Below the pieces are notes generated by a model that ran no database searches, was not told the DNA's origin, and saw only the letters and a list, made by a program, of their open reading frames with translations. 20,861 bases of DNA, from the IMG/VR virus record IMGVR_UViG_3300047274_000148, positions 1-20,861 of that record. One strand, written 5' to 3'. A program made the translations under genes and the position numbers. This DNA comes from a virus. Shown here piece by piece: positions 1,767-20,501 of the stretch (position 1 is its first letter; every line of letters begins with the position of its first letter).

Positions 1767-2030
1767 ATGCGAAAGAGCACTAGATCAATCCTGCAAGAAC
1801 TCAGTGATTTGGGCATAAGCAGGGACAAAGACCAGGTCATAGAAAGCCGTGGTTCTAACCTAATCGAATCTGCGATTAATCTACTATCTTTGATCAAGGA
1901 AAACTACGATCTTGAAACAGCATCTGAATTAGAGCGTAGATTTTTAAATGCCATTCGTTCAGGCGATCCAGCTAAATTTAAACGAGGCATCAAGAAGATA
2001 CAAGAAGGTAAAAGTAATGATACTCAATGA
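1767..2030 (+). CDS. Conserved helical phage protein (87 aa)
   Basis: Start codons GTG (1764) and ATG (1767) are adjacent; ATG is chosen because its spacing from AAGGA is better. The protein is basic at the N-terminus (MRKSTRSILQEL), then includes SRGSNLIESAINLLSLIKENYD and RRFLNAIRSGDPAKFKRGIKKI. From memory this is a conserved unknown found just before the nucleotidyltransferase in T4-like marine phages. Its last 14 bp overlap the next gene, which implies coupled translation and perhaps joint function. Confidence 0.8.
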   Translation: MRKSTRSILQELSDLGISRDKDQVIESRGSNLIESAINLLSLIKENYDLETASELERRFLNAIRSGDPAKFKRGIKKIQEGKSNDTQ

Positions 2031-3078
2031 AGGCGGTAATGTATTTGCTGATGCTATGCCCTTTGATCACAAGGACGTACCAGAGATACTCAACACAGTT
2101 AACGGAGCACTGGACGGAACAGGCATACGTGCTATTCCCGTTGGTTCTGCGGCAACGCCAACTCCTGGCAAACAAAGCGGAGATATGGATGTTATCGTAG
2201 ATGAGAAATCTGTGCTAGAATTTTTCAAAGCCAAAGATGCTAAGACTGCTAGAAAAGCCCTTAATGACTATATCGCATCCAAAGGCCTACAAACCGCTCA
2301 AAGTGGAATTAATGTACACGTTCGGGTTCCTGTTGGCAACGAAGCACACCAAGTTGACATCATGGTCGCTGGAAATGCAGAACGTGTAGCGAAATTCCAT
2401 ACACATAAGATTCCTCAAGGAAGCCCATACAAGGGTGTTAACAAACAATTAATGTTGGCTATTCTAGCTAAGAGCAAAGGCTACATGTGGTCAGCATGGC
2501 AAGGATTATTTGATCGAAATGCCGAAGGCAAGAAGGGAGAATTTGTAACCGATGACCTAGATGCAATAGCACAATTATTGTTTGGTAATGAAGCTACCGC
2601 TGAAGCACTAGGCAGTGTAGAAAGTATCTTACAGGCTCTGCCCAAAGACCAAGCAGAAGCATTGTTAGCTCGTGCTAAAGAAGATCCTAATTGGAAAGAA
2701 ATAGCCAAAGAAGCCATTGATAAAAATGTTGGTCGAGTACCAGATCTTCTTAGATCGGCCATGGATGATCCTGTCGTGGCCAAGTATGCTAAAAATTATG
2801 TTAGGATTGATCAACAATCTTCAGATGAAGAAATTTTTAAGAACTTGGATAAGTTTATGGAAATCAATCCAAACTTCCCTATTAAATCTTCAATGGCTAA
2901 ATTTATATTGATTCGAAACGGTGTAAGTAAAAATGCTGTACAAGATCTGTTACAAGCTCGCGACGAATACTTTAAACAATCGAATATTAAAAAGGTAAGT
3001 TCAATTAAGCCAGTCCCGACACACGAAGGGTCGTCTGATTGGTTTAGACAATACATTGACATTGCGAGTACTAAATGA
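2017..3078 (+). CDS. Pol-beta-fold nucleotidyltransferase (353 aa)
   Basis: Start ATG 2017 has AAGG 8 nt upstream, and the protein begins MILNEGGNVFADA; the frame is open further upstream but that part only overlaps the previous gene. The nucleotidyltransferase signature is visible: G43-S44, then D56-x-D58 (GDMDVIVD), and a third acidic residue D114 (HQVDIMVAG), the usual metal-binding triad. This family moves a nucleotide onto RNA, protein or a small molecule; the substrate cannot be read from sequence. The C-terminal half is helical and unassigned. It ends in an ATGA overlap with the ligase-like gene, so the two are translated together and may act on the same substrate. The fold call is firm, the role unknown. 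Confidence 0.85.
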   Translation: MILNEGGNVFADAMPFDHKDVPEILNTVNGALDGTGIRAIPVGSAATPTPGKQSGDMDVIVDEKSVLEFFKAKDAKTARKALNDYIASKGLQTAQSGINVHVRVPVGNEAHQVDIMVAGNAERVAKFHTHKIPQGSPYKGVNKQLMLAILAKSKGYMWSAWQGLFDRNAEGKKGEFVTDDLDAIAQLLFGNEATAEALGSVESILQALPKDQAEALLARAKEDPNWKEIAKEAIDKNVGRVPDLLRSAMDDPVVAKYAKNYVRIDQQSSDEEIFKNLDKFMEINPNFPIKSSMAKFILIRNGVSKNAVQDLLQARDEYFKQSNIKKVSSIKPVPTHEGSSDWFRQYIDIASTK

Positions 3079-4223
3079 GAGCAAGAGATTTTTTACGTGA
3101 AGCCGAGCAGAATCTAGTCAAGAAACTAGGTCGTGCGTTTAACCACTTAGAAGATCTAGTTTTCTTTTACGGTAGCAACGGTACAATCGAAGCACTACAG
3201 CACATTAGAGAAATAGCCACAGAAGAAGGCGCAAAAACTGTGCGTATGAAATGGGACGGCAATCCTCAAATTTATTGGGGTAGAGAAACTAAAAACGGGC
3301 CGCTGGTGCTTGCTGGTCACAATGGATGGAGCCGAGGAGCAAAGACTGACAGCCCAGAAGAGCTAGAAGATTTTATTCTTAATAAGAGTGGAAGTCCAAA
3401 GACACCTGAAGAACGTACAGCTAGACAACAATTCGCCAAACAGTTTGCTGGACTATACTCGTTGTTTGATCGTGCTACACCTAAAGATTTTGTAGGCTTC
3501 GTCTATGCCGACGGATTATTCTTAACTCCACCAGAACTAGATGAACAGAACGTTTATAATTTCTGCCCAAACCCTAAGAGCAAAACCTGTTATCATGTAC
3601 AAGGCGACAGTGAACTAGGACAACGTATCGCTAAGGCTCAAGTTATGGTCGTTGGTCATGCGTTCTTTCCCGAGTTTGGCATGGATGACTCAGAACAAAA
3701 ACCATTAGATGATTTCAGCATGTTTAATGGAACAGAAGAACTTATAGTTCAAGGTCCCGTTTACAATGTAAGACCAGTTACGATAGACACACAAGAAATA
3801 CAAGCAGTTGAACGTTACCTACAGCAGAACGCCGGCCGAATTGATAGCTTCTTAAATGGCGCTCCTGGACTTAGCGATTTAAAAAATATTATCTATACCT
3901 TTGTTAATCAAACAGCTAAAGCTAAACAGCTAGACAGCATTGACACGGATATGTTCTTTAATTGGCTACAAAATAGCAAAGTTAGCAAACCTAAACAAGA
4001 AAAGATCCTAGAATTAAGCGGCCAGTATTCTAGTGCCCTTGACGCTATCTTTAACCTTGTTCGTATGGTCATGGACATCAAAGACAAGATCATTGATCAA
4101 GTGGAGCAGGGCCGTGCTGAAATTTGGGACACACACGGTGAAGGTCGTGTGCGATATGCTGGTCCAGATAAACAATTTGGCAACGTCAAACTAGTTCCTC
4201 GCAAACGCTGGACTCCAACTTAA
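3075..4223 (+). CDS. Ligase-like nucleotidyltransferase-superfamily protein (382 aa)
   Basis: ATG 3075 overlaps the upstream stop (ATGA). Residues 59-62 are KWDG, matching motif I (KxDG) of covalent nucleotidyltransferases (DNA/RNA ligases, capping enzymes), where Lys takes the AMP/GMP. A YADGLF block near 149-154 could be motif III, GEGRVRY at 355-361 resembles motif IV (EGxV), and NVKLV at 370-374 resembles motif V. The order and spacing fit a ligase-type core, although the family (which I believe is a DUF common in T4-like phages) has no assigned role. It is coupled to a pol-beta nucleotidyltransferase, suggesting a two-step end-modification or repair job. Catalysis is inferred, not shown. 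Confidence 0.75.
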   Translation: MRARDFLREAEQNLVKKLGRAFNHLEDLVFFYGSNGTIEALQHIREIATEEGAKTVRMKWDGNPQIYWGRETKNGPLVLAGHNGWSRGAKTDSPEELEDFILNKSGSPKTPEERTARQQFAKQFAGLYSLFDRATPKDFVGFVYADGLFLTPPELDEQNVYNFCPNPKSKTCYHVQGDSELGQRIAKAQVMVVGHAFFPEFGMDDSEQKPLDDFSMFNGTEELIVQGPVYNVRPVTIDTQEIQAVERYLQQNAGRIDSFLNGAPGLSDLKNIIYTFVNQTAKAKQLDSIDTDMFFNWLQNSKVSKPKQEKILELSGQYSSALDAIFNLVRMVMDIKDKIIDQVEQGRAEIWDTHGEGRVRYAGPDKQFGNVKLVPRKRWTPT

Positions 4224-5223: not shown

Positions 5224-5598
5224 ATGGCCACACAAGCAGAACGTCTAGCTATTGTAGAGACTAAGACAGCAATTATTGAACATAAAGTTGATGACCTTAA
5301 AGGTGATGTTAAGGAAATGCACGATTGTCTTGATCGTACAAGAGATTTATTAGATTCTAAGCTAGATAAGATGATGAGCGAGTATGAGTTTAATCGAGAT
5401 AAATTTTATCAGCATGCTGATGCTCTACATAAAGAAAATAAACAAGAACACGCTACATTAGCTAATAAAATTTCCGATCTTGAAAAAGAAAAGCATAAAT
5501 TTACACTATACGCTCTAGTAGTTCTAGGGTTCGCTGCCGGAGCAGGTTGGATAGGACACATCGACCTTGCGAAATTAATAAGGTTTGTTGGTCTTTAA
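5224..5598 (+). CDS. Coiled-coil protein with C-terminal membrane anchor (124 aa); holin-like candidate
   Basis: ATG 5224 has AAGGAG 8 nt upstream. Residues about 5-95 are strongly charged heptad-like helix (RLAIVETKTAIIEHKVDDLK onward). Residues about 97-115 form one membrane span (FTLYALVVLGFAAGAGWIG), with a short tail IDLAKLIRFVGL. This layout resembles XhlA-type hemolysin/holin-accessory proteins and other tail-anchored phage proteins, so a role in lysis or at the membrane is possible. No lysin gene is next to it to support that. The 3' end overlaps the apparent start of the second nucleotidyltransferase by 52 bp. Confidence 0.8.
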   Translation: MATQAERLAIVETKTAIIEHKVDDLKGDVKEMHDCLDRTRDLLDSKLDKMMSEYEFNRDKFYQHADALHKENKQEHATLANKISDLEKEKHKFTLYALVVLGFAAGAGWIGHIDLAKLIRFVGL

Positions 5599-6314
5599 GA
5601 GAGTTTACAAGAGAAAGTATCGTAGATTCGGCGGTTGTTTTTCATGATCAACTGAATAATAATCTATGGCAGGATAATGCTCTCAAACCCATAGTTAGAT
5701 ATAAATTACTCGAGATAGCCAAAGACTTTATAGAGTTCATTAACATACCGTCTATTAGGCTTAGAGACATAACAATTTCTGGATCTAACGCGGCCTATAC
5801 ATATACAGAAAATTCAGATATCGACCTACACCTAGTCGTTGATGTACCAACGGCCGCAAAGTTTCATTTGAAGCCTTTGTACGATGCAAAGAAAAATCAA
5901 TATAACTTTAATCACGATATAAAGATCAAAGGCATCGATGTCGAAGTTTATGTACAGCCTAGTGACGACGAGCATCACAGTGCTGGAATCTATTCAATTC
6001 TAGACGACAAATGGATCAGCGAGCCAGTTAAAGAAAAAGTTAATATCAGCGACAGTGATGTTGAAATTAAAGTAAGAAATTATCTTAATAAAATTAAATT
6101 AGCACTTCGATCTAGTGATATTGAAGTTGCTAATAAAGTAAAAGATAGATTAAACAGTTTACGTAAAACTGGCCTAGAAAGAGAAGGCGAGTTTTCGGTT
6201 GAGAATATTGCATTTAAAGTCTTGAGATCAAAGGGCTACATCGATCAACTAAGACAGCATATATACGATTTACAAGACAAGGCTCTAAGCCTGGAGAACA
6301 AACATGAAAATTAA
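5547..6314 (+). CDS. Second pol-beta-fold nucleotidyltransferase (about 255 aa)
   Basis: The signature is clear: G79-S80 then D91-x-D93 (SDIDLHLVVD) and D131 (GIDVEVYV), numbered from the TTG at 5547. The conserved block SIVDSAVVFHDQLN near residue 24 matches, from memory, the N-terminus of a widespread T4-like phage nucleotidyltransferase. The frame contains no ATG before that block. TTG 5547 (GGAG 4 nt upstream, inside the previous gene) is the best standard start; ATT 5574 after the overlap is another possibility. The substrate is unknown. The C-terminus is a helical, Lys-rich region overlapping the next gene by 11 bp. Confidence 0.8.
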   Translation: MDRTHRPCEINKVCWSLREFTRESIVDSAVVFHDQLNNNLWQDNALKPIVRYKLLEIAKDFIEFINIPSIRLRDITISGSNAAYTYTENSDIDLHLVVDVPTAAKFHLKPLYDAKKNQYNFNHDIKIKGIDVEVYVQPSDDEHHSAGIYSILDDKWISEPVKEKVNISDSDVEIKVRNYLNKIKLALRSSDIEVANKVKDRLNSLRKTGLEREGEFSVENIAFKVLRSKGYIDQLRQHIYDLQDKALSLENKHEN

Positions 6315-7416
6315 ACACGTTATTGAAGGGCTAAAAGATCCTAAGGATAATCCTTGTTGGAAGGGCTACAAACCAGTTGGAACTAAAAAGAAAAATGGTA
6401 AGACTGTACCTAACTGTGTGCCTAAAGAAAGTGTAGAAGAAGGATACGGAAGATACTACTGCTCTACAGATAAAAAGTGGAAAGAACGCAAAGGTCCTAA
6501 GCAGACTAGAGAAAGTGTGGCGGAAGGCTCTGAACCAAATGTAGAAGAGTTTTTTCAGAAAGTTGCACAAGAGGGTGACTACGACATGCTCTATGATGCT
6601 CAAATGGGCAAATATGGTAAAGAGATTGAACGAGCCGTCCAAGACATGTATGATAATGTCAGCATCAATAGTAGAATGCACCCCGATGATGACTTTGAGG
6701 AAATCTATGATCGTATGTTAGATATGATCGAAGACGACTACGGTGTAGTAGGCGAAGAAAACACAGCCAAAGTAACAGACATTAAACCCGGAGATACTGC
6801 TACTATCGACACGGGCACCGGTGTAACCACAACTGTAGATCTTAAGAAAAATCCAACGGCCTTAACCAAGGATCCAGAGTCAGGTAAACTAAAATTAACA
6901 ACCAATCCAATGAGCAATAAACCACCAGAGCAAGGTGGAGATTCTGCAGAACAGCCAATTAAACCAGGTGATGAGATTGAACTAGCTACAGAGGCTGAAA
7001 CTTCTGAAACAAACATACCTCCCATGCCTGATATCACAGGACTACAACCTGGACAAAGTAAAGATCTAGGCGACGGTGAAGCAGTTACATTAAACAGGGA
7101 CAGTACAGTATCTCTCAGCGGAGGATTTGGAACTATTGTTTACAGCAGCCAAGGAAAGCCTTTAAAATATATGCTTCCTCGTATGGGAGGTCTAGGAAAG
7201 ACTATCGACCTAACAACCAATAAAGCAACAACTTCATATAGTGCAGGTCCTATGAACATAACACAGGGTCCAGACGGCGAAGTCGATGCTGAGTACGACT
7301 TTGGAACTGCAAAGGCTAAAATGTCAAGAGATTCTCAGGGTAAGACTACGAGCAGTCTAACTGCTAGAGAAAGTGCCGACCTTGAAGCTATGCTACGTAT
7401 CGCAGGTCTAAAATGA
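6304..7416 (+). CDS. Probable virion-internal protein with short modular motifs (370 aa)
   Basis: ATG 6304 follows CTGGAGAACAAAC (GGAG). Near the N-terminus is DNPCWKGYKPVGTKKKNGK then VPNCVP (about residues 15-40), a module I recall in many T4-like marine phage proteins of likely capsid or prohead origin. Three copies of a basic-ESV/A-x-E tag follow (41-46, 69-74, 355-360). Residues about 75-150 are acidic and helical, 150-235 are low-complexity Thr/Pro/Gly-rich, and the rest is beta-prone and Gly/Ser/Thr-rich, ending LEAMLRIAGLK. There is no enzyme motif. An internal or core virion role is inferred from the shared modules. It ends in an ATGA overlap. Confidence 0.8.
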   Translation: MKIKHVIEGLKDPKDNPCWKGYKPVGTKKKNGKTVPNCVPKESVEEGYGRYYCSTDKKWKERKGPKQTRESVAEGSEPNVEEFFQKVAQEGDYDMLYDAQMGKYGKEIERAVQDMYDNVSINSRMHPDDDFEEIYDRMLDMIEDDYGVVGEENTAKVTDIKPGDTATIDTGTGVTTTVDLKKNPTALTKDPESGKLKLTTNPMSNKPPEQGGDSAEQPIKPGDEIELATEAETSETNIPPMPDITGLQPGQSKDLGDGEAVTLNRDSTVSLSGGFGTIVYSSQGKPLKYMLPRMGGLGKTIDLTTNKATTSYSAGPMNITQGPDGEVDAEYDFGTAKAKMSRDSQGKTTSSLTARESADLEAMLRIAGLK

Positions 7417-7616
7417 AAATAAACGAACTAGTACAAGGGTTTGAGATCTACACATCGAATGCTGAAAAGCAGATGTTAGAACAACTATCTACACCTCGAC
7501 CCTTGCATAGTTTTTCTGAAAACGATCAGTTCACGATCGAGTCGCTGATTAGAAAAAGTTTGGTAATTAAGATAGGAGACATTAATCCTAGAGTAATTGC
7601 TAATGAAATACACTAA
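7413..7616 (+). CDS. Small conserved phage protein (67 aa)
   Basis: ATG 7413 overlaps the upstream stop by 4 bp. The protein begins MKINELVQGFEIYTSNAEKQ and contains FTIESLIRKSLVIKIG and NPRVIANEIH. The pattern (N-terminal MKxNEL-GF, central E-LIRKSL, C-terminal ANEIH) is one I recall from small conserved genes of T4-like marine phages, with no known role. The last 14 bp overlap the next start. Confidence 0.8.
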   Translation: MKINELVQGFEIYTSNAEKQMLEQLSTPRPLHSFSENDQFTIESLIRKSLVIKIGDINPRVIANEIH

Positions 7617-8065: not shown

Positions 8066-8983
8066 ATGCAAGTTAAAGACCTTTCACATCCAAAAACAAC
8101 TAAAGCACTAAATGAAAGTGCGGCGAAACAATTTGGCTACAAATTAAATGTAGACGGCTTCACTATGGAACAACTTTGTTCAGCTAGAGATAATCTTGTT
8201 GAAAAGATTTCCCAGTTTGAAGTTAGCAAAAACTATGATGCTGTTTACGAGAATACAGATTATCAAAAGAATAGAATGTTCCTAGACATTATTACACAGG
8301 CTATCGCAGAGCGTACACTAAGCCCAGGCGAAGAAAAGAAGCGTGAAAAGTATGTTAAAGGCATGAAGAAAGTTAAGGGTGATTTTTCGAAACGCTATGG
8401 CGATAAAGGCGAAGAAGTCATGTACGCTACAGCGACTAAAATGGCAAAGAAAGAAAGTGTTGAAGAGGCAATGGATGTGCTACGCTCTGCACTTAATGAA
8501 AGAGTCTTAACAGAAGGCGAAGAAGAAAGAGCGGCTCTCATAATGAAAGCTCGCGACATGGTTGACAAGTTAACAGGCTGGTTAGAAGACACAGCTTCGC
8601 TAAAAGCAGAAGCACTATTAGAATTACTAGACTCTATAAGAGATGAATTAGGCTCAGATGTCAGCGCACAGTTCGCTGAGAAAGTAAAGCCAGCACTAGA
8701 AGAAGTTTATACAACATTAGAAACAAATCGTCAAGCTCTAGCACAGGCTGTAGCAGTTATCACAGGCGAAGAAGCCCCAACAATGGGAGCAGAAGGCGCA
8801 CCAGAACCTGCACCAGCAGAAGAAGAAGGTGCTGACCTTGAAGCTGATCTAGCATCCGCAGGTGATGAATTTGCGGCTAGCACACCAGCAACCGGTGGCG
8901 AAGAAGAAGCAGGTCGCGCAAAACGTGAAAGCGTCGAGCGTAGCCGCAGATTAGGCCAAATTTTAAGCTCAAAAAAAAACTAA
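8066..8983 (+). CDS. Probable virion-internal/core protein, zero-frame product (305 aa)
   Basis: ATG 8066 follows CAGGGATTAAAAA. Residues about 1-85 are a helical domain (AAKQFGYKLNVDGFTMEQL). A basic module at 88-130 (KKVKGDFSKRYGDKGEEVMY then ATATKMAKK) recurs, from memory, in T4-like marine phage internal proteins. Next come an ESVEE tag (130-134), an LTEGEEE site resembling a T4 prohead-protease site (L-x-E), a helical domain to about 245, and an acidic Ala/Pro/Glu linker (AEGAPEPAPAEEEGADLEA). It ends GRAKRESVERSRRLGQILSS-KKN-stop. The stop immediately follows a slippery A9C run and a hairpin, so a -1 fusion of 412 residues is also expected. A core or scaffold role is inference. Confidence 0.85.
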   Translation: MQVKDLSHPKTTKALNESAAKQFGYKLNVDGFTMEQLCSARDNLVEKISQFEVSKNYDAVYENTDYQKNRMFLDIITQAIAERTLSPGEEKKREKYVKGMKKVKGDFSKRYGDKGEEVMYATATKMAKKESVEEAMDVLRSALNERVLTEGEEERAALIMKARDMVDKLTGWLEDTASLKAEALLELLDSIRDELGSDVSAQFAEKVKPALEEVYTTLETNRQALAQAVAVITGEEAPTMGAEGAPEPAPAEEEGADLEADLASAGDEFAASTPATGGEEEAGRAKRESVERSRRLGQILSSKKN

Positions 8984-9012
8984 CTGAAGATACGGACGAT
9001 CTAGTCCGTATC
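8974..9012 (+). promoter_or_regulatory. Candidate programmed -1 ribosomal frameshift signal
   Basis: Nine A residues (8971-8979) followed by C contain the in-phase heptamer A AAA AAC (8974-8980). The zero-frame stop TAA is next (8981-8983). After an 8-nt spacer comes a perfect 9-bp stem, GATACGGAC (8989-8997) / GTCCGTATC (9004-9012), with a 6-nt loop. Slippage of -1 enters a frame open to 9303. No U-tract follows, so this is not a terminator. Transcript slippage on A9 would give the same fusion. Confidence 0.7.
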
Positions 9013-9303
9013 CTCTCTACTCTGCAGGGCCGCGCAGACAGCAAACGTACTACCGCTAAGTTCACATGGGACGCCTTGTCCAACATGTCTCAAAACCTTA
9101 CAGGTCAGCAAATTGACTATGAAGCGTTCAAGCTCGAATACGATAACAATCCACAGATTAAAAATCTAGTTAAGAGTTTCAACGGTCGTGGGCTAGTGAT
9201 CAAAACCAAAGCTAAAGACAAAGAAGAAGTTCGAAATAAGAAACCATCCGGTAATTCAGGTGCATTGGCCGCGGCCAATGCCGTGCTCAAGAGACCAGGT
9301 TGA
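8980..9303 (+). CDS. C-terminal extension reached by -1 frameshift (107 codons)
   Basis: From 8980 this frame reads LTEDTDDLVRILSTLQGRAD, then KFTWDALSNMSQ, IDYEAFKLEYDNNPQIKNLV and SFNGRGLVIKTK, ending in a Lys-rich tail and Ala-rich LAAANAVLKRPG. The FTWDAL...YEAFK...YD-NP-IKNLV...F pattern looks like a real conserved fold and begins well before the first possible starts (TTG 9076, ATG 9085), neither of which has a good Shine-Dalgarno. A separate short protein from 9085 is possible, but the frameshift signal just upstream fits better. A single-base sequencing error in the A9 run would also create this picture. The stop TGA lies within the -35 box of the next promoter. Confidence 0.65.
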   Translation, partial: LTEDTDDLVRILSTLQGRADSKRTTAKFTWDALSNMSQNLTGQQIDYEAFKLEYDNNPQIKNLVKSFNGRGLVIKTKAKDKEEVRNKKPSGNSGALAAANAVLKRPG

Positions 9304-9334: not shown

Positions 9335-10024
9335 ATGACCTTATTAAAACCTAAATTTGAATATAAATCTTTAACTAGAGACGAATCAACTGGCAAAAGA
9401 CTTTATGCAACACCAGATGGACACAAAGTTCCATCTGTTACTACTATCCTTGATAAAACCAAACCGGCAGAATCTAGAGAAGCCCTAGCTAGATGGCGGG
9501 CCGCAGTTGGAGCAGAAAAGGCACAACAGATTACCACAGAAGCCGCTAGCCGCGGAACTAGGATGCACACGTTCTTAGAGCGTTACATCAAAGGCGAAGA
9601 ACTTCCGGAATCCGTAACCAATCCCTATGCTCAACAAAGCCTTGTGATGGCCAAGAAAGTAATCACCCATGGCATGAATTTTGTTGATGAAGTTTGGGGT
9701 TCAGAAGTTCCTTTATACTTCCCCGAACTATATGCGGGAACTACTGACTGTGTAGGCGTACATCAAGGCGATGAAGCTATCCTAGATTTTAAGCAGACTA
9801 ACAAGCCTAAAAAGCGTGAATATATTGACGATTACTTTTTACAGTTAACAGCCTACGCTCTTGCACACAACGAAATCCACGGAACTAACATCCGCAAGGG
9901 TGTTATCCTAATGTGTTCAAAAGACTACGAGTATCAGGAGTTTATCTTAGAACCCAAGGATTTTGACTACTGGACAGAACGTTGGTGTGCTAGGGTATCA
10001 GAATACTACAAGCTAAACAGCTAA
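9335..10024 (+). CDS. PD-(D/E)XK (RecB/Cas4-like) nuclease (229 aa)
   Basis: The RecB-family nuclease pattern is complete: a GTRMHTF block with H78, GTTDCVG with D138, AILDFKQT with D151 and K153 (the D...DxK core), and the downstream QLTAYA block with Q170. The N-terminal part includes VPSVTTILD, common in phage members of this family. It should be a Mg-dependent DNA nuclease acting in replication, recombination or host DNA breakdown; no Cas4-type cysteine cluster is visible. No ribosome binding site is present, matching a leaderless mRNA from the sigma70 promoter directly upstream, and suggesting early expression by host polymerase. Confidence 0.9.
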   Translation: MTLLKPKFEYKSLTRDESTGKRLYATPDGHKVPSVTTILDKTKPAESREALARWRAAVGAEKAQQITTEAASRGTRMHTFLERYIKGEELPESVTNPYAQQSLVMAKKVITHGMNFVDEVWGSEVPLYFPELYAGTTDCVGVHQGDEAILDFKQTNKPKKREYIDDYFLQLTAYALAHNEIHGTNIRKGVILMCSKDYEYQEFILEPKDFDYWTERWCARVSEYYKLNS

Positions 10025-17292: not shown

Positions 17293-17793
17293 ATGAAAAT
17301 ATATCTAGACATGGATGACGTAGTCGCCGATTGGATTAACTACGCCAAAGACTTTTTAAAACTACGATGGGATCACGAAGCTGGTGAGCGTATCCCACAA
17401 AATGAATGGGATCGTCTCAAAGACGATAGCCGTTTTTATCTAAACTTGCCTCTCAAAGCTGGGGCTATGGATCTAGTATCTCATTGTAGAACTCTAGTAG
17501 ATACAGGCCGAGCAGAAAGCCTACAGTTCCTAACAGCTCTTCCACATGACTATTCTATGCCATATGCGGCACAGGACAAGGTTTGGTGGGCTGATAGACA
17601 CTTTAAAGGTATACCGGTGTTTCTCGGACCATTTAGCTACGATAAATGGCGTCACTGTAAACCCGGAGACATCTTAATTGATGATCGACACAGTAATTGT
17701 TCAGAATGGAGAAGTGCAGGAGGTCTAGCTCATGAATATCGTACCTGGGAAGCCTGCAAACTATGGTTAGATCAGGAGTTCGGTCCTTTATGA
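17293..17793 (+). CDS. HAD-family 5'(3')-deoxyribonucleotidase-like protein (166 aa)
   Basis: The start is the leaderless ATG 17293, since the N-terminus MKIYLDMDDVVADW is HAD motif I (nucleophile D6, acid D8), with the D-x-D-x-V-x-AD form of deoxyribonucleotidases. Motif II is FLTALP (T81), motif III Lys is probably K96 (DKVWW), and motif IV is DILIDDR (D130, D131). The family removes phosphate from deoxynucleoside monophosphates, which fits nucleotide balancing beside RNR. A Trp-rich segment at 97-120 shapes the pocket. It overlaps the carbamoyltransferase by ATGA. Confidence 0.88.
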   Translation: MKIYLDMDDVVADWINYAKDFLKLRWDHEAGERIPQNEWDRLKDDSRFYLNLPLKAGAMDLVSHCRTLVDTGRAESLQFLTALPHDYSMPYAAQDKVWWADRHFKGIPVFLGPFSYDKWRHCKPGDILIDDRHSNCSEWRSAGGLAHEYRTWEACKLWLDQEFGPL

Positions 17794-19454
17794 AAGTACT
17801 AGGCATAAGCCCCTGGCATGACAGTTCTGTTGCAGTATACTCTGAGAAAGGTCTAGAGTTTTACTGCAAAGAAGAACGTATCACCGGTGTTAAGAGAAAA
17901 AAGAATCCTATCAAATCTATTGAACTAGCCATAGCCGAACATCCTGATATCAACGAAGTTGTTATCGCTAGTCCTGGGAGCTCGGGTCCCGAGAACGAAT
18001 TTATAAAATTATTACTTGATGCAAAACTGCCGTGTCCTACACATGATATCAGCGAGTTCCATCATCTACAACACGCCAGTCTAGCATTTTACAACAGCGG
18101 ATTTGATCGAGCTCTAGTGCTGGTCGTTGACCGAAACGGATCTTATATAGCCAACGGTCTAGCAAGAGAATCTGAAAGCGTATTCGAAGCGTCATATCCT
18201 TGTAACTTTAAACCACTGTTAAAGAATTATTGGGTTAAGCACCTGGGAGAAGATACCAGCCCGTCAATCGACGCGGCCGCCGAAGCCCTAGCCAAAGATA
18301 AAGACTGTATAGTAAATGTTCGTAGTGCCTTTAGCATTGTCAAGGTGTATGAGACAGCTACTAGCCTAATTGGTCAAGGACATTTAGAAAACGGTAAGAC
18401 GATGGGTCTAGCCAGTTACGGTAAACCTAGGTTCAATATCCCGTTGTTCATTGATGGATATCATCCTATTGACTATCATTTTAGCCATGCCTTCAAGGAG
18501 TTTGGAGGCAAGATGCCAATGGCTATCTCTAGGGAATTAGATCCTTTCGCAGTCACTGAAGTCACTGAGGAAAATCATCAAGCCTATGCAGACTATGCTT
18601 ATCTAGTACAACAAGAAACGCAGAAGGCTGTGCTTGCTCTAGTTAAAGAACATGTAGAAAAAACTGGCATAAAGAAAGTCTGCCTTACCGGGGGATATGC
18701 TCTTAACATAGTCGCCAATGAATTCTTAGCCATGAGCTTGCCTGATGTGGAATTTTATTTCGAACCTCTGGCAGATGACTCTGGCAACAGTATCGGAGCT
18801 GCCATGTATCTGTATCGATCTAAAACAGAAGACATGACCATAAAGCCGATCGAACATACATTTGTCAATGGCGTTAGATGTCCTTTAGATTTTATCAGCG
18901 GCCAAGAAACTTCAGTGGCCTCTGTGGTAGATCTACTCGTCGATCAAAAAAGCGTAGCAGTCTATCAAGGCTTAGCCGAATCTGGACCAAGGGCTCTGGG
19001 CAATCGAAGTATTCTATTTGATCCACGTAACCCAGATGCCAAACATATTGTTAACCAAATTAAGCGTAGAGAATGGTATCGTCCATTTGCAGCCATGGTC
19101 TTAGAAGAAGATGCTCAAGAATACTTTGAAATGGCGCATATCAAACACTGTCCGTTTATGACCATGAGCTTCAAAGTAAAAGATCATGTAAAATCAAAAA
19201 TACCCGGTGTAACGCATGTTGACGAAACTTGCCGGATTCAGACGGTCTCACCTGCGGACGGTGTTATATACAATGTATTGAAAGAATTTAAAGCAAAGAC
19301 AGGTGTTCCTGTATTGCTTAATACTAGTTTTAATCTTTCGGGCAAGCCTTTAGTAGAAACTCCAGATGATGCGATTACTACACTAAAGTACTCAACGTTA
19401 GATTATGTATGGTTTCCAGAGATTGGAAAAATTTTAACAAAAGGAGAGACATAA
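17790..19454 (+). CDS. Carbamoyltransferase, NodU/TobZ family (554 aa)
   Basis: ATG 17790 overlaps the upstream stop. The N-terminal Kae1-like domain has GISPWHDSSVAV (5-16), FHHLQHASLAFY and LTGGYALN. The C-terminal (YrdC-like) part has the family hallmark SGPRALGNRSILFDPRN, then REWYRPFAAMV and LNTSFNLSGKPLVETPDDA. These enzymes use carbamoyl phosphate and ATP to O-carbamoylate an acceptor hydroxyl. In phages the acceptor may be a hydroxymethylated base, a nucleotide or a sugar. A coupled nucleotidase upstream hints at nucleotide chemistry. Length is normal for the family; the acceptor cannot be read from sequence. Confidence 0.93.
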   Translation: MKVLGISPWHDSSVAVYSEKGLEFYCKEERITGVKRKKNPIKSIELAIAEHPDINEVVIASPGSSGPENEFIKLLLDAKLPCPTHDISEFHHLQHASLAFYNSGFDRALVLVVDRNGSYIANGLARESESVFEASYPCNFKPLLKNYWVKHLGEDTSPSIDAAAEALAKDKDCIVNVRSAFSIVKVYETATSLIGQGHLENGKTMGLASYGKPRFNIPLFIDGYHPIDYHFSHAFKEFGGKMPMAISRELDPFAVTEVTEENHQAYADYAYLVQQETQKAVLALVKEHVEKTGIKKVCLTGGYALNIVANEFLAMSLPDVEFYFEPLADDSGNSIGAAMYLYRSKTEDMTIKPIEHTFVNGVRCPLDFISGQETSVASVVDLLVDQKSVAVYQGLAESGPRALGNRSILFDPRNPDAKHIVNQIKRREWYRPFAAMVLEEDAQEYFEMAHIKHCPFMTMSFKVKDHVKSKIPGVTHVDETCRIQTVSPADGVIYNVLKEFKAKTGVPVLLNTSFNLSGKPLVETPDDAITTLKYSTLDYVWFPEIGKILTKGET

Positions 19455-19804: not shown

Positions 19805-20191
19805 ATGGCGTATTCTGATAAAGTTATAGACCACTACGAGAACCCACGCAATGTGGGTTCTTTCTCTAAGGAAGATACCTCAGTTGGTACCGGTATGGTT
19901 GGAGCACCTGCCTGTGGTGATGTTATGAAACTACAGATCAAAGTCGAAGACGGCATTATCACTGATGCACGTTTTAAAACTTATGGTTGTGGATCAGCCA
20001 TTGCAAGTTCAAGCCTTGTTACAGAGTGGGTCAAGGGCAAAAGTCTTGACGAAGCTATAACTATTAAGAACACACAGATAGCTGAGGAACTTGCACTACC
20101 TCCAGTTAAAATACATTGTAGTATTCTAGCTGAGGATGCTATCAAAGCCGCAGTAGAAGATTATCGAAAGAAGCATGATAACTCTAACTGA
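19805..20191 (+). CDS. iscU: Fe-S cluster scaffold protein IscU (128 aa)
   Basis: Full-length IscU, the scaffold on which IscS sulfur and iron are built into [2Fe-2S] clusters. All cluster ligands are present: C37 with D39 (GAPACGDVMK), C62 (TYGCGSAIAS), and H104-C105. The HscA chaperone motif LPPVK (98-102) is intact. The sequence is strikingly close to proteobacterial IscU from its first residue (MAYSDKVIDHYENPRNVGSF), pointing to fairly recent acquisition from a host. IscS, HscA/HscB and ferredoxin are absent from the window, so it probably works with host proteins. No clear Shine-Dalgarno; likely coupled to the mini-gene 2 nt upstream. Overlaps iscA by 17 bp. Confidence 0.96.
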   Translation: MAYSDKVIDHYENPRNVGSFSKEDTSVGTGMVGAPACGDVMKLQIKVEDGIITDARFKTYGCGSAIASSSLVTEWVKGKSLDEAITIKNTQIAEELALPPVKIHCSILAEDAIKAAVEDYRKKHDNSN

Positions 20192-20501
20192 AATAGCCGC
20201 TGAAAAAGTCAAAGAACAATTAGAAAAGCGTGGACGGGGTATAGGCATACGGATAGGGGTCAAAACTACAGGATGCAGTGGATTGGCCTATGTATTAGAA
20301 TTCGTTGATATCGCTCCCATCACTAGAGATCAATTTGTCTATGAAAGTCACAGCGTGAAAGTTTGGGTAGATGGAAGATCTATCCCTTATGTCAACGGTC
20401 TTATCATGGATTGGCAAAAGAAAGGCCTTAACGAAGGCTTTGAGTTTATGAATCCAAATGAAAAGGATCGATGTGGGTGCGGAGAAAGTTTTAGAGTATG
20501 A
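20175..20501 (+). CDS. iscA: A-type Fe-S carrier IscA (108 aa)
   Basis: An IscA/HesB-family carrier that receives clusters or iron and passes them to apo-proteins. The three essential cysteines are present: C34 (TTGCSGLAY), and C100 and C102 (RCGCGESF). Other hallmarks are YVLEFVD, VKVWVDGRS and GLNEGFEFMNPNEKD. It looks more diverged from host IscA than the neighbouring IscU is from host IscU, as if it had been in the phage longer. ATG 20175 lies inside the 3' end of iscU, so translation is coupled; its stop overlaps the next start (ATGA). Confidence 0.95.
   Translation: MITLTEIAAEKVKEQLEKRGRGIGIRIGVKTTGCSGLAYVLEFVDIAPITRDQFVYESHSVKVWVDGRSIPYVNGLIMDWQKKGLNEGFEFMNPNEKDRCGCGESFRV

Follow-up and report, generated by a model that had tools for sequence, protein, structure and literature searches.

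We conclude that a −1 programmed frameshift, most likely ribosomal, probably makes a fraction of a phage protein, itself probably of the head core, carry a second and putatively internal protein; neither a product nor a ratio has been measured. The window, meaning the whole stretch of DNA analyzed, is itself a virus record of 20,861 bases. In it, the zero frame of the upstream gene terminates in TCA AAA AAA AAC TAA (see the table). The sequence-only reading had described A_AAA_AAC in phase with this gene, an adjoining TAA, an 8-nt spacer (8981–8988), a 9-bp hairpin and a −1 frame of 107 codons, and every one of these features was present when we checked again. That reading named A_AAA_AAC only; the A9 run in fact contains two tandem in-phase heptamers. 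Chance can be excluded, since the A9 is the sole A-run of eight or more in the whole window, among the heptamers lying in phase in the listed window genes A_AAA_AAC alone runs up to a stop codon, and the layout recurs in relatives.

In the mechanism that we propose, ribosomes would meet A_AAA_AAA and A_AAA_AAC in tandem, with the downstream hairpin acting as stimulator. Most would end at the adjacent TAA and yield a virion protein of 305 amino acids, and a fraction would slip back by one base and add the 107-residue domain, for a predicted trans-frame product of 412 amino acids.

Features of the frameshift junction, the flanking genes and the candidate protease sites (window coordinates).
Feature	Position	Strand	Remarks
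Upstream zero-frame gene	8066..8983	+	305 aa, mostly helical; homologue of 121Q gp27 / CBB_298
LNE motif, residues 15-17	8108..8116	+	candidate prohead-protease site; [LI]NE in 70/70 family members
LTE motif, residues 148-150	8507..8515	+	second candidate protease site, by alignment inspection
A9 run	8971..8979	+	followed by C8980
First in-phase slippery heptamer, A_AAA_AAA	8971..8977	+	
Second in-phase slippery heptamer, A_AAA_AAC	8974..8980	+	
−1 frame extension	8980..9303	+	107 codons/aa; stop TGA 9301-9303
L-T-E codons at junction, −1 frame	8980..8988	+	candidate protease site
Zero-frame stop TAA	8981..8983	+	adjoins heptamer; its first two bases with base 8980 form the first extension codon
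Hairpin, putative frameshift stimulator	8989..9012	+	9-bp stem 8989-8997/9004-9012, 6-nt loop, perfect
PD-(D/E)XK exonuclease	9335..10024	+	comes after the pair in the window as in Rak2-like phages; serves as synteny anchor, outside the mechanism

Viral contigs were scanned with the exonuclease, the upstream protein and the upstream alignment, which gave about 160 loci with the upstream gene. The junction set consists of 75 non-identical junctions with an A-run, all from metagenomic phages and drawn from many separate metagenomes. In 74 of them, an A-rich slippery site in phase with the upstream gene precedes a homologue of the extension encoded in the −1 frame, and the layout recurs down to about 40% identity of the upstream protein. 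The commonest form is A9, then G, A or C, then TAA. Run length almost always preserves phase: A9 is found in 64 junctions, A10 in eight, and A7, A8 and A11 in one each. The heptamer at the last codon is AAAAAAG in 58 cases, AAAAAAA in nine and AAAAAAC in six, together 73 of the 75. In the A8 member (L140), A_AAA_AAA sits one codon earlier, in phase; the A7 member (L168) reads CAA AAA AAG TAA and also retains phase, as do three members (L123, L163 and L169) whose stop comes one codon later. The sole exception is L016, in which A11 places the extension in the +1 frame; this run, at about 3640–3665, may be genuine or may come from faulty assembly.

In the rest of these genes, A-runs of eight or more occur once, and only one of 35 other Lys-Lys-Lys tracts starts with AAA AAA. 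Where the slip site carries Ser, the codon is TCA in nearly all members, versus a usage of 25%.

The downstream hairpin was assessed by folding z-scores computed in the 48 nt after the slip codon. The score is −3.5 for the window and averages −4.0 for the family, with 78% of members below −2. At most control offsets, 3–11% of members fall below −2, and the mean is between −0.08 and −0.32 at six of the seven other offsets; the +60 control, with a mean of −1.1, may partly catch displaced hairpins. Among 33 members with a common register, pairing holds in 97.6% of cells over the nine base pairs of the stem, seven of which have double changes, a result matched by none of 500 shuffles. Pairing in that register was the criterion by which these 33 were picked, which inflates the percentage; the selection does not account for the double changes. 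Codon choice within the stem is also unusual, with Ala encoded by GCG in 26 of 28 cases (5% usage), Arg by CGC in 26 of 32 (15% usage) and Ile by ATC in 27 of 29 (26% usage). Judged from these codons, stem pairing dictates the use of rare codons.

Hairpins are not uniform across the family. Some members have hairpins of quite different sequence, for example CCCCTTAG with CTAAGGGG; others have a weak one (L012, L022, L114/L115, L163 and L168), and in a few no strong hairpin is apparent. In the subgroup formed by L044, L050, L052, L164 and L165, the hairpin lies about 28 nt from the slippery site. Here, a short insertion displaces a conserved CCCTTAG/CTAAGGG hairpin to a distance that is unusually far for a frameshift stimulator.

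The alignment of relatives that the sequence-only reading had called for thus contains a conserved A-run and phase and a hairpin with compensatory changes. Relatives in which the extension is fused in frame without a slippery site, which according to that reading would refute it, were looked for and none was seen. Together with the conserved stop, these observations support programmed −1 frameshifting. Multiple tests were not corrected for and the sequences are related, so small P values are descriptive, and those for codon bias ignore kinship. As far as comparison of sequences can take it, the argument for frameshifting is carried by covariation and by conservation of phase over deep divergence.

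The extension evolves as a protein-coding sequence, with a median pairwise dN/dS of 0.11, indicative of strong purifying selection. Codon 35, within the conserved domain, is the commonest place for the first ATG of the −1 frame, some members having none at all, and most members, including the window, have no ATG, GTG or TTG near the start of the extension. The earlier claim that no ATG covers its conserved part consequently holds for the window and for most members; an ATG is present at the second extension codon in 12 of 75. Searches of the extension against Pfam and PHROGs gave zero matches, and a Foldseek search with its model found no solved structure at E < 0.001. Winged-helix domains make up most of the best Foldseek matches, all with an E-value of 0.15 or higher, and among viral models only two unnamed phage proteins match at E < 0.001. 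Since the winged-helix matches are so weak, we claim no function for the extension.

What are the two proteins? The AlphaFold model of the upstream protein is helical and of low confidence. Within a set of only seven proteins, a profile of the upstream protein finds 121Q gp27 (E 2.7e-13) and CBB_298 (E 6.9e-12); for the extension, the corresponding matches are CBB_299 (E 6e-7) and 121Q gp28 (E 5e-4). Each half has a gene of its own in these Rak2-like giant phages, the two lying side by side as 121Q gp27/gp28 and CBB_298/299. In both phages, the pair is followed by an exonuclease and a ribonucleotide reductase, an order also found in the window, where the neighbors of the pair are the exonuclease, a pectate-lyase-like ORF and ribonucleotide reductase. 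Because synteny agrees, we regard the homology assignments as safe. Mass spectrometry of CBB virions identified ten unique peptides of CBB_298 and two of CBB_299 (PMC5259590, Table 4); the numbering of that study was equated with gp298/gp299 of the record because the pattern of structural genes agrees. Scanning bacterial genomes with the upstream alignment revealed no relatives, and the window has no nucleotide-level match in the phage collection.

The 305-residue protein is probably a head-core or internal virion protein, a view that has good but indirect support. The sequence-only reading had called it a core or internal protein, and the virion homologues in CBB and the conserved protease-like motifs described below favor this indirectly; an identity with the T4 gp22 scaffold gene does not stand. 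In relatives, another ORF of about 364 amino acids lies between gp21 and gp23, and the present gene is located elsewhere. A tail assembly chaperone of the gpG/gpGT kind was also considered and rejected, as no tape-measure gene was recognized next to the pair and the homologues CBB_298 and CBB_299 are present in virions.

Several other genes in the window deserve comment. In the nucleotidyltransferase-like ORF at 5547–6314 (+), which runs in the −1 frame over the last part of the gene before it, there is no ATG near the conserved start. Most relatives encode the first residue of M[YLF]LREF there with ATG, and the window has TGG instead. The ORFs at 3075–4223, 6304–7416 and 7413–7616 (+) begin with M[KR]xx-type leaders (MRARDFLREAE, MKIKHVIEG and MKINELVQG) and possibly form a head-targeted cluster. 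By eye, the ORF at 1948–3078 (+) is nucleotidyltransferase-like, and the DUF6267 protein at 3075–4223, near the nucleotidyltransferase-like ORF at 5547–6314, has a KWDG ligase-like motif. Also recognized by eye, at 19805–20501 and 17763–19454 (+), were IscU-like and IscA-like iron-sulphur proteins and a carbamoyltransferase-like protein.

In T4, L/I-x-E is the motif after which the prohead protease gp21 cleaves, and internal proteins reach the head by means of a leader of about ten residues that this protease removes (PMC9026906). Motifs of this type occur within the upstream protein. At the second of the two sites listed in the table, the alignment mostly has [LI]xE followed by G or S, corresponding to QLNE|SNIEKAE of 121Q gp27. 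At the junction, [LIVM]xE lies no more than eight residues from the slip in all 74 frameshift members, versus 29 of 3552 background windows, and it is present even where its distance from the slip varies. The strict T4 letters, [LI]xE, are found there in 29 of the 74, including the L-T-E of the window, with V in first position in most others. A recognizable gp21-type protease is encoded in half of the ten larger relatives searched, whose records are possibly fragments, and the capsid proteins of four relatives contain YLxE41|S. That the [LIVM]xE beside the slip is a prohead-protease cut site remains our inference from motif comparison, as the motif is short and there are no cleavage data.

Separate genes for the two halves are also present in about 30 metagenomic relatives. 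In 23 of 29 distinct separate-gene cases, the second gene starts in a TAATG overlap (offset 2). The separate proteins often begin with short leaders, some of which resemble the T4 capsid-targeting sequence. The start is MRFRDLTE in 121Q, MRFSQITE in CBB and MRASEFLAES in L017, the last close to the T4 leader MKTYQEFIAEA. All 29 distinct proteins have [LI]xE at their very start, in several only at residues 3–5. A tree of the upstream protein and extension, rooted on the Rak2-like phages, places the frameshift arrangement in one clade with support of 100; it derives from a quick search and has some long branches elsewhere. The exonuclease tree conflicts with it, scattering the frameshift trait over six changes. 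As the exonuclease, by this comparison, has probably recombined relative to the adjacent genes, we used the gene's own tree to infer its history. On that tree, the frameshift arrangement is of single origin. From the motifs, fusion to the upstream protein seems to have taken the place of the leader in this clade, and the candidate cut site was retained.

Could the extension be expressed in some other way? The sequence-only reading had offered two alternatives, of which a homopolymer assembly error fails and transcript slippage on A9 is not excluded. Although A9 is a classic site of assembly or sequencing error that could split one gene, and the A11 of L016 does break phase, there is practically no room for this explanation: phase agrees in 74 of the 75 distinct junctions, to which many separate metagenomes contributed, and no run length joins the frames. 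Very unlikely, too, is that the extension is made alone by TAATG stop-start coupling, with the slippery site incidental. The TAATG overlap of 23 of 29 separate-gene relatives is the arrangement that such coupling would use, and re-initiation is possible in the 12 of 75 frameshift-clade members with an ATG at the second extension codon; separate translation may therefore add to expression in some members. However, it cannot explain the whole family, since most members lack a nearby start codon, and it accounts neither for the covarying hairpin nor for the conservation of the slippery phase. Transcriptional slippage, in which RNA polymerase adds one A on A9 so that a fraction of mRNAs carry A10 and are translated in the ordinary way, would give an identical 412-residue protein. 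We consider this unlikely. Six A's and one further base would suffice for a ribosomal heptamer, yet 73 of the 75 runs are A9 or longer, and on nine A's or T's slippage by bacterial RNA polymerase is efficient, a property that some bacteria exploit (PMC5009743). The surplus A's also create the second in-phase heptamer, however, so conservation of the run does not discriminate. Slippage by polymerase does not require an adjoining zero-frame stop, and the covarying hairpin at its fixed spacing would still be untranscribed while the polymerase was on the A-run. Because of this hairpin, and because the A7 and A8 members retain an in-phase slippery heptamer, we favor ribosomal frameshifting; slippage, or a mixture of the two, stays possible, as A9 exceeds what one heptamer needs and polymerase slips on nine A's.

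If ribosomal frameshifting produces the longer protein, what becomes of the extension? One possibility is that the second protein, carried by the fusion, would enter the prohead in a fixed proportion and that a protease of the T4 gp21 type would then cut at the conserved [LIVM]xE beside the slip, much as a viral protease acts on Gag-Pol; both steps are inferred. The corresponding history, that of a phage Gag-Pol, is one in which, in a single lineage, an internal protein gave up its capsid-targeting leader and a −1 frameshift fusion to a core protein evolved instead, with packaging at a fixed ratio and release by protease. We put this forward tentatively, as a proposal that could well prove wrong, since packaging and release have not been observed. 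It is also possible, if more doubtful, that the same frameshift makes the extension a permanent C-terminal domain on a minority of subunits, with no proteolytic release. Known phage structural frameshifts yield extended subunits, as in T7/T3 gene 10 and the phage A2 capsid (PMC5009743), and the weak winged-helix-like matches would suit a domain that could tether DNA. Against a permanent domain are the [LIVM]xE beside the slip in 74 of 74 members, even at varying distance, and the fact that homologues of the extension are separate virion proteins.

These findings concern a large family of uncultured T4-like giant phages in which a frameshift replaces a separate pair of virion genes, and the separate-gene state is still visible in relatives and in the cultured phages 121Q and CBB. 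The family offers a test of frameshift-based dosing of cargo proteins into a phage head. It also matters for annotation, as automatic pipelines truncate the upstream protein and miss or misplace its partner. Apart from tail chaperones and a few capsid or tail proteins, hardly any conserved frameshifts are known in phages (PMC5009743, PMC10885494), and we found no earlier report in the open-access literature of a frameshift in a prohead core or internal protein. The signals themselves belong to known −1 frameshifting. What has not been described, as far as that search shows, is this gene family, a frameshift that replaces two separate virion genes, or a junction with a protease-like motif.

The closest parallels each share part of this arrangement. 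As in the gpG/gpGT tail chaperones of lambda, an in-phase X_XXY_YYZ near the end of the first gene would fuse two adjacent ORFs in a set ratio; here, however, homologues of both parts are virion proteins, no tape measure is recognized alongside, and relatives with separate genes encode two independent virion proteins. The capsid frameshifts of T7/T3 gene 10, Lactobacillus phage A2 and Listeria phage PSA produce a short and an extended virion protein, as proposed here. Theirs extend a major capsid or tail protein, whereas ours would extend a minor and probably internal one, with an extension homologous to a separate gene product and a protease-like motif at the junction. E. coli dnaX and the IS-type A_AAA_AAG sites have the same type of heptamer and a downstream hairpin, but here no Shine-Dalgarno-like element is apparent upstream by eye, the heptamers are in tandem within A9, and the zero-frame stop adjoins the site.

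For the fate of the second protein, the relevant comparisons are with T4 and with retroviruses. T4 IPII/IPIII and gp21 resemble the separate-gene relatives in their short leaders and [LIVM]xE motifs; members of the frameshift clade seem to have exchanged the leader for fusion with the upstream protein, and we claim no homology of the mature parts. Retroviral Gag-Pol differs in that ours is a DNA phage with unrelated proteins, in which release and packaging have not been demonstrated. The likeness that we propose is one of strategy: fusion to an assembly protein would dose a second protein, and a viral protease would free it.
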